This document shows, piece by piece, positions 58,668-64,000 of a DNA stretch of 64,000 nucleotides. The translations under genes were made by a program, and so were the position numbers. The stretch covers positions 1 through 64,000 of the forward strand of contig CAIXXM010000148.1 in NCBI GenBank assembly GCA_903923395.1, read 5' to 3'. Position 1 is the stretch's first letter; each line of letters begins with the position of its first letter. The notes under the pieces are model-generated. The model worked only from the letters and a program-made list of their open reading frames with translations. It was not told where the DNA came from and made no database searches. This stretch comes from an uncultured Acidobacteriia bacterium (lineage in GTDB: Bacteria > Acidobacteriota > Terriglobia > Bryobacterales > Bryobacteraceae).

Positions 58668-59966
58668 TTATAGGTTCCCAGTGAGTGTCTGAAGTGTGGC
58701 GGAGGCAACGCGGTAACGGACAAGGCCGTCATCATAGGCATTGCGCGCCTGGGTGAGTGTGGATTGCGCGTCGGAAACTTCGAGCGCCGAAGCTTCGCCG
58801 GCCTGGTAGCGGAGTACGGTCAGCCGCAGGCTTTCCTGCGAGAGAGTGGCGGATTCCTGCAGGCTTTTCAACTGGTCCTGCGCCACGCGGAGTTCCTGAT
58901 AAGCGGCCAGAACATTGGCCTTCACGTTCCGCTGGGCCAGGGTCAGATCAATCTTCGCCTGCTCCTCTTTGAGCGAAGCCTGTTTCACACGGCTGCGGAT
59001 GGAACCCCACGTCCAAAGAGGAATATTCAAAGTTGCCTGCGCTTGATAACCAGGGTTGCGGAACTTCTCTTTGTCGATGGTTGTGTACCAGGTGAGCTGG
59101 TTGGAATTGAATCCGTACCAGAAGTCCAGCCCGAAAGAAGGCAGGTAACCATACTTCGCGATGGTGATCCCATGCGTGGCTTCATTCACCACGGAGGCAG
59201 CGGTCTTGATTTCCGGACTGGTGGAAACGGCCTGGGCACTAACGTCCGCGGGCACCGGCAGGTCTTTGGGCGCAGCGGCCAGATCATCGGCCAAATCGAA
59301 ATCTTCGCGCACTTCCGGGAACATGAGCACCGCAATGGCGATCTTCGCTTTCACGATTGCCAGTTGCGCATCCTGCACGTCGCGCTGGCGTTGTTGCAGG
59401 AGGAGTTGCGCTTTGATCACGTCGGAATGGGCCACTTCCCCGCCCTTTTCCTGCTTGCTCGAAATATCGTAGAAGCGCTCTGCTTCAGTCACGCTCTTCT
59501 GCGCATTCAGAAGGTGCCTCTGCGCCGCGAGCACCGAGTAGTAGTCCTGGATGACCACAGTCGTCAGACCGCGGGAAGCCACTTCCACGCGGGCCTTGGC
59601 CGTCATCTCAGCTGCCAGCGCGCGGCGGATCTCGCCTTTGCGGACGGCATTCAGCAGTTCCTCATGCGCCTGCACCTGTTCGGTGTAGACATGGACGCCA
59701 TTCGCGGTCACATAGCTGCCAGTGGGGCTGCCATTGCCCTGCGTGATCAGGAAGCCATTATTCGCCGTCACCTGCGGCAAGGTGTTGGCCTTCGCCTGCT
59801 TACGGTCCTCCGTGGCCTGGCGGACCGCAAGAGTGGCGGAATCCAATTGCAGACCGTACTTCCTGGCACGTGCCAACGCGTCTGGAAGATCAATTGTCAG
59901 CGGCGCGGTCTGTGCCGCAGCAAGCGCCGACCCCAACAAAGTAATACAGGCAACCCGTCGAATCAT
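58668..59966 (-). CDS. TolC-family outer-membrane efflux protein
   Basis: A 432-residue outer-membrane factor. Signal peptide: CITLLGSALAAAQ. The two long helical repeats of OEP domains are visible, for example DALARARKYGLQLDSATLAV and LLLQQRQRDVQDAQLAIVKA in the first and VKQASLKEEQAKIDLTLAQR with RLTVLRYQAGEASALEVSDA in the second. First gene of the efflux operon with the adaptor and pump. ATG 59966 has GGAAA 6-10 bases upstream; a TTG 12 bases upstream is less likely. It is divergent from the gene at 60099. Confidence 0.93.
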   Translation of the reverse strand: MIRRVACITLLGSALAAAQTAPLTIDLPDALARARKYGLQLDSATLAVRQATEDRKQAKANTLPQVTANNGFLITQGNGSPTGSYVTANGVHVYTEQVQAHEELLNAVRKGEIRRALAAEMTAKARVEVASRGLTTVVIQDYYSVLAAQRHLLNAQKSVTEAERFYDISSKQEKGGEVAHSDVIKAQLLLQQRQRDVQDAQLAIVKAKIAIAVLMFPEVREDFDLADDLAAAPKDLPVPADVSAQAVSTSPEIKTAASVVNEATHGITIAKYGYLPSFGLDFWYGFNSNQLTWYTTIDKEKFRNPGYQAQATLNIPLWTWGSIRSRVKQASLKEEQAKIDLTLAQRNVKANVLAAYQELRVAQDQLKSLQESATLSQESLRLTVLRYQAGEASALEVSDAQSTLTQARNAYDDGLVRYRVASATLQTLTGNL

Positions 59967-60098
59967 GGAGTTTTCCAAAGACTTTCATTTGACCACTAGA
60001 ATCTGAATGACGGGTGAAGGCTGACAAATCTTTGCGTTCTCAGACAGCCACAAGCTGGATCAACTACCCTGAAAGCAGCGTCCAACCCGACAGAACCC

Positions 60099-61085
60099 AT
60101 GCGAATCCCCGCCACTTTCCGCCTTGCCGCACTGCTCGCGGCCACTCTTGGTCTGCAGGCCGCCGTTTTGCCGGAGGGTATGGGTGCCTGGAAGAAGACA
60201 GGCGCGGAAGCCGCACCCGCAGCCGATGCCAAGCTCTGGCCTGAGTTTGGTTTTCAGACGGGAGAAAAGACGGCTTTCGCGGACGCAGACCGGAATATGT
60301 CCATCACCGCGTGGCGGTTTTCTGACTCCACCGGATCGCTGGCCGCATTCTTCACCCTCCGACCCGTGGATTCGACGCCCACAGAACGGACGAAGTACTC
60401 CATTGAGACCAAGACCGGAGCTCTCATCGCGGCTGGCAACTACCTGCTCCAGTTTGAAGGCCTGAAACCCAGCGATGCGGAGCTGAACTACCTGGCGGGA
60501 GTACTGCCGAAGTATTCCTCAGCCGCTCTCCCCACACTGCTGAGCCACGTCCCTGCGGCTGGCCGGATCGCCGGTTCGGACCGCTACATTCTGGGTCCGG
60601 AGAGCCTGGCCAAGTTCACGCCCGGGATTCCGCCCTCTGCCGCAGCCTTTCACTTTGGAGCAGAGGCTGCCGTCGCCAAGTACGGCAAACCGGGCAAGGA
60701 GTCCACCCTCGTCCTCTTCAACTACCCTTTGATGGCGCAGGCGCGGGAACAACTCGGCCAGTTCCAGCAGGTCCCGGGTGCGGTGGTGAAACGGGCGGGG
60801 CCGATTGTGGCACTGGTGCTGCATGCCCCAACGCCGGACGACGCCGAACGACTGCTCTCCCAGGTCACCTACAACGCGCAGGTCACGGTGACCGAGAAAG
60901 TTCCCACGCTGAAAGACAACCCCGTGAACCTGTTCTGGAACATTGCCATCCTGATTCTGGTGATCTTCGGGTTCTGTATTTTGTCGGGGCTGGTGTTCGG
61001 CGGAATCCGGCTGCTGCTCCGCCGGAAGGGGATTACCGGAGAGGAAGAACAGATGATCCGGCTGGACCTCGACGCGAAACGGTGA
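60099..61085 (+). CDS. Secreted protein with C-terminal membrane anchor, function unknown
   Basis: A 328-residue protein with a signal peptide (RLAALLAATLGLQAA), a periplasmic region containing two similar alpha/beta parts (AWRFSDSTGSLAAFFTLRPV and a later FNYPLMAQAREQLGQFQQVP), and one membrane helix near the C-terminus (LFWNIAILILVIFGFCILSGLVF) followed by a basic cytoplasmic tail. Similar proteins occur in Acidobacteria, but I know of no assigned function. It is monocistronic, divergent from the efflux operon. Confidence 0.75.
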   Translation: MRIPATFRLAALLAATLGLQAAVLPEGMGAWKKTGAEAAPAADAKLWPEFGFQTGEKTAFADADRNMSITAWRFSDSTGSLAAFFTLRPVDSTPTERTKYSIETKTGALIAAGNYLLQFEGLKPSDAELNYLAGVLPKYSSAALPTLLSHVPAAGRIAGSDRYILGPESLAKFTPGIPPSAAAFHFGAEAAVAKYGKPGKESTLVLFNYPLMAQAREQLGQFQQVPGAVVKRAGPIVALVLHAPTPDDAERLLSQVTYNAQVTVTEKVPTLKDNPVNLFWNIAILILVIFGFCILSGLVFGGIRLLLRRKGITGEEEQMIRLDLDAKR

Positions 61086-61234
61086 GGCGGGTGGCGCTCT
61101 CTCCGGGACGGCATTTCCGGCATATTCCCGGCGGAACGTCCACTTTTCTTATCGGGCCAGACAATATCCACAGCCCAGAAAAGTATCCTAAAATCAATAT
61201 TTTACCCTGTGGAAAAATAAGATTTCGATTTCGC

Positions 61235-61264
61235 TTGACGCGGACACCCCGGAAACTTTACTAT
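61235..61264 (+). promoter_or_regulatory. Sigma-70-type promoter in the intergenic region
   Basis: TTGACG (61235-61240) and TACTAT (61259-61264) with an 18-bp spacer, preceded by an A/T-rich stretch (61183-61232) that could act as an UP element. The predicted start is near 61271. No gene follows on this strand for more than 1.4 kb; the next feature is a folded region and a terminator. Confidence 0.7.
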
Positions 61265-61270
61265 CCAATC

Positions 61271-61394
61271 ACTAAGAAAAGTTTCTGTGCGGTTCTGTAG
61301 CCGTCGAAACTGATTCTCCCTAAACCAGCCGCCGGGCGTGATTCCCGGTGGTGATCCCCAAGGCCCGCCTTCACCGGCGGGCCTTGAAGTTTTT
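61271..61394 (+). ncRNA. Candidate small RNA (about 124 nt)
   Basis: The predicted transcript from the promoter at 61235-61264 to the T5 tract at 61390-61394 contains three stems: an irregular hairpin with outer stem AGTTTC/GAAACT (61280-61285 and 61306-61311) and an inner CGGTT/AGCCG stem; an 8-bp hairpin CCGCCGGG/CCCGGTGG (61329-61336 and 61344-61351) with a 7-base loop; and a terminator hairpin. It lacks the SRP, 6S or tmRNA consensus motifs I know. It occupies most of a 338-bp gene-free region whose first 150 bases hold only A/T-rich sequence. Identity as an sRNA is inference. Confidence 0.55.
61360..61394 (+). terminator. Intrinsic terminator of the candidate sRNA
   Basis: A perfect 10-bp stem AAGGCCCGCC / GGCGGGCCTT (61360-61369 and 61376-61385) with loop TTCACC, followed by GAAG and T5. 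On the minus strand there is no T-tract, so it mainly serves plus-strand transcripts, although it lies 30 bases past the stop of the convergent MFS gene. Confidence 0.9.
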
Positions 61395-61423
61395 GCACGT
61401 TTCTGCCACCGCCAACCGGTATG

Positions 61424-62653
61424 CTACGCGGCCACTTTGCTCTGGTTCCGAAACAGGCCGGCAATCAGAAGCAGAATGACAAAAGCCCCCGCACCGGAAC
61501 TCAGCCAGAACAGTTGCCAGTCCACATGACCGGGGGACGACGTGAACACGTCGAGGGCGCGGCCGCTGAGAAGGGAGCCCGCGAACATACCGACGCCATA
61601 GGTCAGGAAGGTAATCAGGCCCTGTGCGGAACTTCGCAGGCTGGCGGGTGCCTGCTGATCTGTGTAGAGCTGCCCTGTCATGAAGAAAAAGTCGTAGCAG
61701 ACGCCGTGCAACGCGATGGCGAGGTAGAACATCCAGATGCCCGTATCCGCGTTGCCGTAAGCGAGCAGCGCATAACGGACGGCCCACGCACCCAACCCCA
61801 TCAGCAGCACCCACTTCACGGAGATCCGCCGGAAGATGAACGGCATCAGCAGCATCATGCCGACTTCGGAAGCCTGCCCCAGCGTCATCTTCGCCGCAGC
61901 ATCCTGCACATGGACATCATTCAGATAGGCGTTCGTGAAGGAGAAATAGAAGGTGAGCGGGATGCAAGCAAGCACCGAACCGATGGCGAACACCAGGAAC
62001 GACGGGTCTTTCATCATCACCAGCGCGTCAAGCCCCAGAATGTCGCGCATGGTCACGACCTTTCCTTTGCCGGTGGGCGGCGTATGCGGCAGGATCAGGC
62101 TGAACCCCGCCATGATCACGGATGCGCCGGCGGCAAGCAGGAACGGAGTCGCGTTCTCTTCGATCTTCAGGGCACTGAGTGCCACACCGATGGCAATCCA
62201 ACCGAGGGTGCCAAAGACGCGGAGCAGCGGGAAGTCACGGCCTGGTTCCTTAATATGCTGCAGTGCCAGAGAGTTGGTCAGCGCAATCGTGGGGAAGTAG
62301 CAGAGACAGTAAATCAGCATCAGCGCGTAGACGGACCCGAAATCCGTCACCTTGGTGACGGCAAAGAGCAATCCTGCACCGAGAAGGTGCAGCACCGCCA
62401 GCATCTTTTCTGTGGCAAAGAAGCGGTCTGCGATCAGGCCGACGAAAAACGGCGAGATCATCGCGGCCACGGCGGTGGTGCCAAAGACTAGTCCGGCTTC
62501 CGTGCCGGAGAACTTCAGGGTCTTCGTCAGATAGGTCCCCAGGGTCACGTACCAGCATCCCCAGATCACATAATTCAGGAACATCATCGCGCTCAGGCGC
62601 GCCCGGTCAGCAAAAGGCATAAACAGGGAGTTTACCGAAAACTGAGCGTACAT
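61424..62653 (-). CDS. MFS transporter, nucleoside:H+ symporter-like (NupG/XapB family)
   Basis: A 409-residue, 12-helix transporter. The N-terminus ARLSAMMFLNYVIWGCWYVT with LGTYL is the hallmark of nucleoside-H+ symporters, and helix 4-5 has SLALQHIKEPGRDFPLLRVFGTLGW, the NHS motif. Later GVCYDFFFMTGQLYTDQQAP also matches. It would import nucleosides or related ribosides. ATG 62653 is annotated; ATG 62620, giving 398 residues, fits the usual family start better, and neither has a strong ribosome site. Divergent from the next gene. Confidence 0.88.
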   Translation of the reverse strand: MYAQFSVNSLFMPFADRARLSAMMFLNYVIWGCWYVTLGTYLTKTLKFSGTEAGLVFGTTAVAAMISPFFVGLIADRFFATEKMLAVLHLLGAGLLFAVTKVTDFGSVYALMLIYCLCYFPTIALTNSLALQHIKEPGRDFPLLRVFGTLGWIAIGVALSALKIEENATPFLLAAGASVIMAGFSLILPHTPPTGKGKVVTMRDILGLDALVMMKDPSFLVFAIGSVLACIPLTFYFSFTNAYLNDVHVQDAAAKMTLGQASEVGMMLLMPFIFRRISVKWVLLMGLGAWAVRYALLAYGNADTGIWMFYLAIALHGVCYDFFFMTGQLYTDQQAPASLRSSAQGLITFLTYGVGMFAGSLLSGRALDVFTSSPGHVDWQLFWLSSGAGAFVILLLIAGLFRNQSKVAA

Positions 62654-62682
62654 GCGAAGCTTAAATAATTCGATCGTCTTTC

Positions 62683-63504
62683 ATGAAGCTATACTCAGCC
62701 GTTGTTGCCTCACTCCTCCTCCTGCCAACCAGCCTCAGCGCCGTGGAATTGAAGCCTGAAACAGTTGCGGCCTGGGATCAGTACATCGCCAAGCTGGAAG
62801 CGAGTTGGGTGCCGCGGTTCAACGGGTCCCGCTTTATTGCAGTGAACGACAGTGCCGAGCGGATGCAAAAGATGAAGGCAGGCGAAGTCGTGGTGCGTCC
62901 CTCCGTCGGCAAAGATGGTGAGACATCACTGCCTTCAGGCATGATCAGCGACTGGACCGGTGGCTTCTTCGTATACGGTGCAACGCTGCCGCAGGTGTTG
63001 GCATTTCTCCAGGACTACAGTCACCACAAGGTCACCTTCTATCCAGACATCGTCGATTCCGCCATCCGCAAATCGAATCCGCCGGATGAATTCGATGTCT
63101 ATTTGAAGATCGTGAAATCAAAGTACATGGTCACCGACTACCTGAACAGTGACCACAAAGTCACCTGGACGCATCCTTCCAAAACGCGTGCCTACTGCAG
63201 AAGTGCCAGTACGCGGGTGGCGGAGATCGTCAACTACGGTACGCCGAAAGAGCATGAACTGCCCGTGGGCAATGACCGCGGCTATGTGTGGCGCATGAAT
63301 GGTTACTGGTTCGTGGAAGAACGTGACGGCGGAGTCTACGTGGAGTATGAGACGATCACGCTCTCACGCGATATTCCTTCGTTGCTGGGGAAGGTGCTGG
63401 GGCCAATCCTCCACAGCGTGCCGCCTGAAGCCTTGCATCTGAGCCTGGAAAAGTGCAAAAAGGGCATCCTTGCGACACTGCCGCAGACGATCCGGGCCAA
63501 TTAG
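62683..63504 (+). CDS. Secreted protein, START/SRPBCC-like, function unknown
   Basis: A 273-residue protein with signal peptide YSAVVASLLLLPTSLSA. The mature part has the strand-helix layout of SRPBCC-fold proteins: FFVYGATLPQVLAFLQDYSH, FDVYLKIVKSKYMVTDYLN, HKVTWTHPSKTRAYCRS, WRMNGYWFVEERDGGVYVEY and a terminal helix around SLLGKVLGPILHSVPPEALH. Similar proteins are frequent in Acidobacteria. No ligand or partner can be named. The last four bases (TTAG) are shared with the stop of the convergent metW. Confidence 0.78.
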   Translation: MKLYSAVVASLLLLPTSLSAVELKPETVAAWDQYIAKLEASWVPRFNGSRFIAVNDSAERMQKMKAGEVVVRPSVGKDGETSLPSGMISDWTGGFFVYGATLPQVLAFLQDYSHHKVTFYPDIVDSAIRKSNPPDEFDVYLKIVKSKYMVTDYLNSDHKVTWTHPSKTRAYCRSASTRVAEIVNYGTPKEHELPVGNDRGYVWRMNGYWFVEERDGGVYVEYETITLSRDIPSLLGKVLGPILHSVPPEALHLSLEKCKKGILATLPQTIRAN

Positions 63505-64000
63505 CCCAACACGAAAACAGCCATCCGCGCGAACAGATTGGGAAAGCTTTTCACACGGCTCTCACCGCTCAGGAAGTACCTGCGCTCAATCGGGAACTTC
63601 TGCACGGCGCAAAAATCTTCGAAATCATTGATCGTCAGGAAGTGGATGTTCGGCGAGTTGTACCAGTCATGCGGGAACAACTCCGTCTTCGGGGCCTGGC
63701 CGCTGAAGAGCATGGACATCCGTACCGTCCAGTGGCCGAAGTTGGGGAACGACACCACCGCCTTGCGGCCCACACGGAGGATCTCCCGCAGTGACTTTTC
63801 GGGAGACCGCGTCTCCTGCAGAGTCTGGCTGAGAATCACGTAATCAAAGGCGCCGGTGGGGTAATCCTGCAAGCCCTCATCGATATCCCCCTGATACGCC
63901 GAAACACCACGTGCAATCGCTTTGCGGACCTGTGCGGCGGAGATCTCCACACCGCGCGCCAGCACATGCTTGTGTTCGATCAGCCAGGCGAGGAGTTCGC
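63501..64000 (-). CDS. metW: Methionine biosynthesis protein MetW (5' truncated by window end)
   Basis: The C-terminal 165 residues of a MetW-type SAM-dependent methyltransferase-fold protein; the frame runs off the window end (visible N-terminal part ELLAWLIEHKHVLARGVEIS). Family marks are QGDIDEGLQDYPTGAFDYVI, LSQTLQETRSPEKSLREILR, VSFPNFGHWTVRMSMLFSGQ and NIHFLTINDFEDFC. MetW works with MetX (homoserine acetyl/succinyltransferase), whose gene is normally upstream and would lie just outside the window. Confidence 0.95.
   Translation of the reverse strand, partial: ELLAWLIEHKHVLARGVEISAAQVRKAIARGVSAYQGDIDEGLQDYPTGAFDYVILSQTLQETRSPEKSLREILRVGRKAVVSFPNFGHWTVRMSMLFSGQAPKTELFPHDWYNSPNIHFLTINDFEDFCAVQKFPIERRYFLSGESRVKSFPNLFARMAVFVLG

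Follow-up and report, generated by a model that had tools for sequence, protein, structure and literature searches.

The window examined here, the whole stretch of 64,000 nucleotides, carries at 61235-61394 on the forward strand what sequence comparison supports as a real small RNA gene, previously uncatalogued and present in relatives throughout a single large class of soil Acidobacteria. Comparison of homologous loci has shown that the predicted unit has its own sigma-70 promoter, a 5′ hairpin (SL1), the stretch UGAUUCUCCC, often a second hairpin, and a terminator, and that it occupies an orthologous site after a gene encoding DUF6599. We think it likely that this is a trans-acting sRNA gene of about 110-125 nt, which would control the mRNA of a Lys/Ala-rich micro-protein through two pairing blocks (blocks 1 and 2). 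A broader reading, in which an Hfq-assisted sRNA beside DUF6599 controls a histone-tail-like micro-protein of about 20 residues throughout the class, and an HU-type protein in some lineages, is put forward tentatively.

The window copy and its locus

All parts of the unit lie on the + strand. The sigma-70-type promoter (61235-61264) is located as the original prediction described it, with a −35 box TTGACG at 61235-61240, an 18-nt spacer and a −10 box TACTAT at 61259-61264. It is followed by CCAATCAC (61265-61272), a discriminator/start region that alignments show to be conserved within the window's family only and that was not seen by eye in RNA copies of other families. With the start taken from promoter spacing, the predicted sRNA extends to the terminator over about 124 nt (61271-61394), with no gene inside. 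It begins with SL1, a conserved 5′ hairpin with an outer 4-bp stem (61280-61311; fold and covariation), which is followed by pairing block 1, UGAUUCUCCC (61311-61320, UUCUCCC being 61314-61320). The linker at 61321-61327 has the sequence AUCGAACAUCA or similar (block 2) in many relatives; in the window copy it has diverged to UAAACCA and lacks AUCGAACAUCA. SL2, a variable hairpin given by the fold at 61328-61352, is missing in some relatives (by eye in L100, L101, L103, L104 and the f8/f11 copies). The intrinsic terminator hairpin and U tract (61359-61394) had been described as a perfect 10-bp stem with T5; the stem (61359-61386) and the TTTTT (61390-61394, starting three bases past it) are borne out, and the stem has 11 pairs and a 6-nt loop instead.

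The fold computed from 61271 onward has an energy of −55.7 kcal/mol, whereas shuffled sequences average −38.2 (z −4.9) and none of 200 shuffles reached the native value; the fold of 61265-61400 gave z −5.5. A consensus scan of 59000-64000 found 4 promoter-like stretches where 1.4 were expected and 8 terminator-like stretches where 5.2 were expected, neither significant alone. Because such scans are near chance, the case for an RNA gene rests on conservation and comparison.

The unit sits between a DUF6599 gene (PF20244; 60099-61085, +; Pfam 41.2 bits), its conserved upstream neighbour, and a convergent nucleoside-H+-symporter-type gene (61424-62653, −) that runs towards the sRNA. As in the earlier statement that the neighbours end before the unit or point the other way, DUF6599 ends at 61085 and the transporter is convergent. 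Of 97 RNA-bearing loci, 95 have DUF6599 upstream of the RNA and in the same orientation; only L024 and L022, whose contig stops a short way upstream, depart from this arrangement. From the DUF6599 stop to SL1 the distance is 83-320 nt across RNA-bearing loci, and in two f10 loci about 800 nt separate the stop from the promoter. The genes downstream of the RNA vary among relatives (ORFs of 11 loci, by eye). With no constant same-strand gene seen downstream in these 11 loci and the next gene in the window convergent, the unit has little resemblance to a cis-acting leader or riboswitch, in agreement with the earlier view that it does not look like the leader of any gene. The DUF6599 linkage, the C-rich pairing motif and the likely target go beyond what the original prediction contained. 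An independent promoter and an intrinsic terminator with no conserved downstream gene are features of a trans-acting sRNA. Among the f11 copies scanned, 16 of 24 have a tRNA-Thr(CGU) within the 3 kb fetched around them. Elsewhere in the window, an ORF of 273 aa (62683-63504) matched neither Pfam nor NCBIfam.

Distribution and conservation

A DNA search gave matches in 28 of 101 genomes, the window's own included; the best matches span the promoter, SL1 and the C-rich strand, and a few weak ones only the 3′ part. A covariance model built from 25 copies (R1) matched the window copy, one of its own building sequences, at 61265-61393 with 77.2 bits, and within the window's family it matched 181 of the 200 genomes searched, some of which had supplied R1 sequences. 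Among good-quality family genomes 130 of 141 were matched, as were 70 of 76 genera, and a genome of the family usually has one match. The R1 matches in distant genomes (L088, L091, L092, L097 and L098) were rejected, as by eye they look false and driven by the terminator. For this reason a second model (R2) was built without promoter and terminator, from SL1 and UUCUCCC only in 54 sequences. R2 matched 121 of 299 class genomes. In a phylum sample of 247 it matched 20 genomes, all of the same class as the window, to which 27 of the sample belong at that rank or nearer. There was no R2 match in the roughly 220 genomes from other classes of the phylum (13 listed, and 207 unlisted that were taken as other-class since the list is ordered by kinship).

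A pattern scan of named genomes found at least 118 stretches, and among the matches listed all 80 loci are from Acidobacteria; the carriers among these listed matches are Bryobacterales, Acidobacteriaceae, Candidatus Sulfotelmatobacter, Granulicella, Edaphobacter, Acidicapsa and similar, with Granulicella and Edaphobacter being culturable. Two near-identical RNA copies occur on separate contigs of G021 (L022 and L029); both are near contig ends, so the duplication is possibly an effect of assembly.

We also used DUF6599 as an anchor. Of 23 genomes searched, 20 had a DUF6599 match, including 2 of 3 from other classes, and 3 had none. The 20 loci read in this way come from genomes with no R2 match or, for G014, which is outside the R2 samples, no R1 match. 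A promoter, a hairpin, a pyrimidine-rich stretch and a terminator were found in this order by eye at 11 of the 20 loci (L138, L139, L140, L141, L144, L145, L146, L150, L152, L155 and L156), which include families f5, f6, f7 and f10 with diverged motifs. No such order was seen by eye at the other nine (L137, L142, L143, L147, L148, L149, L151, L153 and L154).

Lack of conservation in relatives had been named as an outcome that would count against the original prediction; instead, both stems and promoter are kept in the family and the class. Of the 97 homologous loci, 96 have a promoter of the same layout (0.5% in shuffles), a count that is partly circular for the 72 loci located partly through the upstream TTGAC/T, and 95 have a terminator (4.8% in shuffles). 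A promoter was likewise found at all 20 further loci fetched after the R2 search, in which neither promoter nor terminator was part of the model. As for the stems, 10 pairs have changed on both sides, where shuffles average 5.4. The terminator supplies 8 of these 10, with 8 of its 10 modelled pairs changed on both sides. In SL1 there are 22 double-change cells, where shuffles give 7.1, and 4 double-changed pairs, where they give 2.9; 127 of 500 shuffles equalled this number of pairs. Taken alone, covariation in SL1 is moderate.

UUCUCCC is invariant in the 25-sequence alignment, and L003, which was left out of the alignment, has UUCUCCU. Its mean unpaired probability is 0.83 in the window copy; for 93 copies the mean is 0.59, while the RNA as a whole averages 0.39, and UUCUCCC is more open than the RNA average in only 76 of the 93. 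The 13 nt that follow, at 0.42 against 0.39, are barely above the whole RNA. Two other candidates in the alignments were rejected: a conserved short peptide within the RNA, for which indels and the want of a constant start were seen by eye, and a DnaA-box-like TGTGGA upstream of the promoter in the first alignment, which is present at only 9 of 60 family loci.

Hfq probably assists the pairing of the RNA with mRNA. The window's genome has a strong Hfq gene (95.9 bits). Of 121 class genomes that bear the RNA, 119 have Hfq, compared with 95 of the remaining 178, in a cross-table which assumes that the R2 and Hfq searches (299 class genomes each) drew the same genomes. This co-occurrence, seen in sequence searches, is confounded by relatedness. 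Among the genomes listed, 7 of f3 genus g45 and 10 of f7 have no Hfq match, a further 65 unmatched genomes being outside those listed; G383 (f7) has Hfq. The RNA models also gave no match in the g45 genomes listed.

A candidate target and the second pairing block

In the mechanism that we favor, UGAUUCUCCC would pair with GGGAGAAUCA near the ribosome-binding site of the micro-protein mRNA, and block 2 (usually AACAUCA) would pair with UGAUGUU around the same ribosome-binding site, as suggested by sequence matching and co-variation. Pairing would block translation of a Lys/Ala-rich protein of 18-26 aa that resembles a histone H1 tail. Because the pairing stretch of the RNA matches the start region of this lysine-rich gene in relatives, the RNA probably switches the protein off. 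In a few genomes, genes for HU-type DNA-binding proteins may be targeted as well.

Target sites were picked on block 1 alone. In the window's genome and three others of its genus, GGGAGAAT-N3-10-ATG occurs at 52 sites against 4 for the reversed pattern. Five of the 52 precede Lys/Ala-rich ORFs (L162, L163, L166, L178 and L192), whereas none of the 12 in the window's own genome does. Across 61 family genomes, GGGAGAATCA-N3-10-ATG occurs at 91 sites (49 genomes with a site) against 5 reversed, and the window's own genome has 0. Since no target of its own emerged from the search and its linker lacks AUCGAACAUCA, the target is inferred from relatives. In these, judged by sequence, the conserved single-stranded stretch is complementary to unlinked mRNAs, and the target side, for which genomes of the window's family were searched, is seen there. 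Part of the target match is expected, since block 1 spans the purines of the ribosome-binding site.

Fifty of the 91 sites were examined, of which 30 were chosen by the search tool and 20 (one of them HU) were hand-picked for likeness to the common form; thus only the 30 are an unbiased sample. Among these 30, 18 precede Lys/Ala-rich ORFs, 2 precede HU-type genes (PF00216) and 10 precede neither, and for the 50 combined the counts are 37 Lys/Ala-rich ORFs and 3 HU-type genes. The base rate of a Lys/Ala-rich ORF after GGAG..ATG is 0 of 231. An HU-type gene as the main target was rejected since the match is weak against shuffles; in the two cases tested, out of three, 40 and 4 of 300 shuffles were as good.

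The candidate ORFs are 18-26 aa long, mostly 20-26 residues, and start with MKNATKKA or similar. In ten ORFs of twenty residues, pairwise differences at the three codon positions number 81/32/235, and third positions are the most variable, which makes translation of the small ORF probable. Neither of two longer Lys/Ala-rich proteins matched a Pfam or NCBIfam family. The Lys/Ala-rich ORFs at L210-L258 have a conserved leader and a promoter-like TATATAT box and may also have a 5′ hairpin (e.g. L210 near 1500). Five genomes (G056, G058, G060, G105 and G117) have a Lys/Ala-rich target site and no R1 match, and one of the 91 sites (G022:C4:219487) is antisense inside that genome's own RNA match (G022:C4:219416-219539).

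In the target leader, TGATGTT is usually followed after 0-2 bases by AGGGAGAATCA or GGGAGAATCA; on the RNA side, the usual sequence a few nucleotides past UCUCCC is AACAUCA. Block 2 played no role in the choice of sites. In 29 genomes, its pairing energy averaged −7.1 kcal/mol with the cognate target against −6.0 with non-cognate targets (p = 5e-5, the lowest value that 20,000 permutations can give, in a test that ignores the relatedness of genomes). Two blind cases bring the total to 31 pairs, of which the 26 distinct ones average −6.9 with cognate and −5.6 with non-cognate targets (p = 5e-5); the distinct-pair p stays 5e-5 without the clearest case, G107. Control means were −4.0 against 13 other sites with block 1 and −3.2 against shuffles. 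G010, which has a longer and different ORF, was excluded from the pair test. Matching changes are found in G107 (AACGTAA with TTACGTT), G059 (ATGTCA with TGACGT, one G-U) and G035 (ACATCG with CGATGT). In G113, G002 and G109 the own target is not the better partner. The blind predictions failed as written in both genomes: G031 keeps only ACAU, with a shorter match, and G109 lacks both the predicted block and a canonical block 1, although its RNA could form an 11-pair duplex (one G-U) with its target. The cognate advantage of block 2, as computed from the sequences, is confounded by relatedness.

Alternative explanations and comparison with known RNAs

The C-rich strand of a conserved sRNA could pair with many ribosome-binding sites, the Lys/Ala-rich gene being just one match. 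This is unlikely in our view, although UUCUCCC looks like an anti-Shine-Dalgarno sequence of a generic kind, the position of the pairing strand is taken in other families by different pyrimidine motifs (CCCUCCUU in f10 and UUUUUCUCUUU in f5), and 10 of the 50 fetched sites precede neither Lys/Ala-rich nor HU-type ORFs; block 2 follows its own target from genome to genome, and a Lys/Ala-rich ORF comes after the site in 37 of the 61 genomes. The co-variation of the linker with an mRNA, together with the mostly unpaired state of UUCUCCC, among the most constrained stretches, also makes it very unlikely that the RNA acts mainly by binding protein (an Hfq sponge or other) with pairing secondary, a role that an RNA usually in single copy in nearly all family genomes, with promoter and structure conserved, would fit. 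The same-strand linkage to DUF6599 (95 of 97 loci, 83-320 nt from stop to SL1) is what one would expect of a 3′ UTR element or attenuator of that gene; a promoter of its own at 96 of 97 loci, lying some 800 nt past the stop in the two f10 loci, leaves this idea with very little probability.

A divergent member of a known family (6S, Acido-1 or MmgR/alphaR8) is equally hard to credit. The original prediction saw no match to SRP, 6S, tmRNA or RNase P motifs, and a search against Rfam agrees: nothing credible was found at the gathering cut-off over the whole window, or at E values up to 10 over 351 bases. What speaks for a known family is RF00519 (suhB/MmgR), which gave 24.7 bits (E 0.47; cut-off 41) on the f11 copy L094, one of 13 loci scanned; membership was rejected because the window copy has no match, L094 is below the cut-off of 41 bits and UUUCCUCCCU is missing. 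Acido-1 (RF01686), described as a predicted non-coding RNA of Acidobacteria in the accessible part of its report (PMC2864571), does not match the window RNA; of 81 class genomes, 2 contain it, on contigs other than those that carry the window RNA. For 6S RNA (RF00013) there is neither a family match nor a long stem with a central bubble, and a better candidate lies elsewhere in the genome. That candidate, G000:C159:4966-5159 (L112; 32.4 bits, cut-off 46.4), is probably the 6S RNA of the window's genome, and sub-threshold 6S matches in 8 of 21 genomes, the window's own included, suggest a divergent 6S in the family. A match to adenovirus VA RNA at L085 1090-1250 (−; 48.3 bits, cut-off 62) is presumably due to chance.

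Acidobacteria are among the most abundant bacteria of soil. A literature search, thin on subscription journals, found no description of this RNA or of DUF6599 and no trans-acting sRNA with a target for Acidobacteria. With a defined gene, a pairing strand, a conserved locus and a co-varying candidate target, sRNA regulation in the phylum, for which the accessible text of a review counts 4 annotated sRNAs (PMC9029176), becomes directly testable. The analysis also exposes a family of lysine-rich genes of 18-26 aa that gene callers have probably overlooked. If the proposed control is true, it would be an RNA switch on nucleoid composition in Acidobacteria, acting via a histone-tail-like micro-protein.

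The RNA can also be compared with other known systems. In E. coli, DsrA acts on the hns mRNA, which encodes a DNA-binding chromosomal protein; the two RNAs are unrelated as far as Rfam shows, and the parallel lies in the target, here suggested to be a histone-tail-like micro-protein. RsaE/RoxS and other sRNAs of Firmicutes pair with ribosome-binding sites through a C-rich strand, which the RNA shares with them, whereas they belong to another phylum and the window copy matches no Rfam family. Similar in layout is the group alphaR8/MmgR/SisA-D (RF00519), which shares a hairpin, a C-rich strand and a terminator in the same order, an order confirmed in 11 folded copies of the present RNA. MmgR, in the accessible part of its description, is an Hfq-associated RNA with a hairpin, a single-stranded C-rich anti-Shine-Dalgarno stretch and a Rho-independent terminator (PMC12559287). 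The motif differs, being AUUCUCCC in the Acidobacteria RNA and a single-stranded UUUCCUCCCU in alphaR8/MmgR, as do the hosts (Acidobacteria and Alphaproteobacteria) and the putative target. Although it falls outside that family by the comparisons above, the RNA may work as alphaR8 does.
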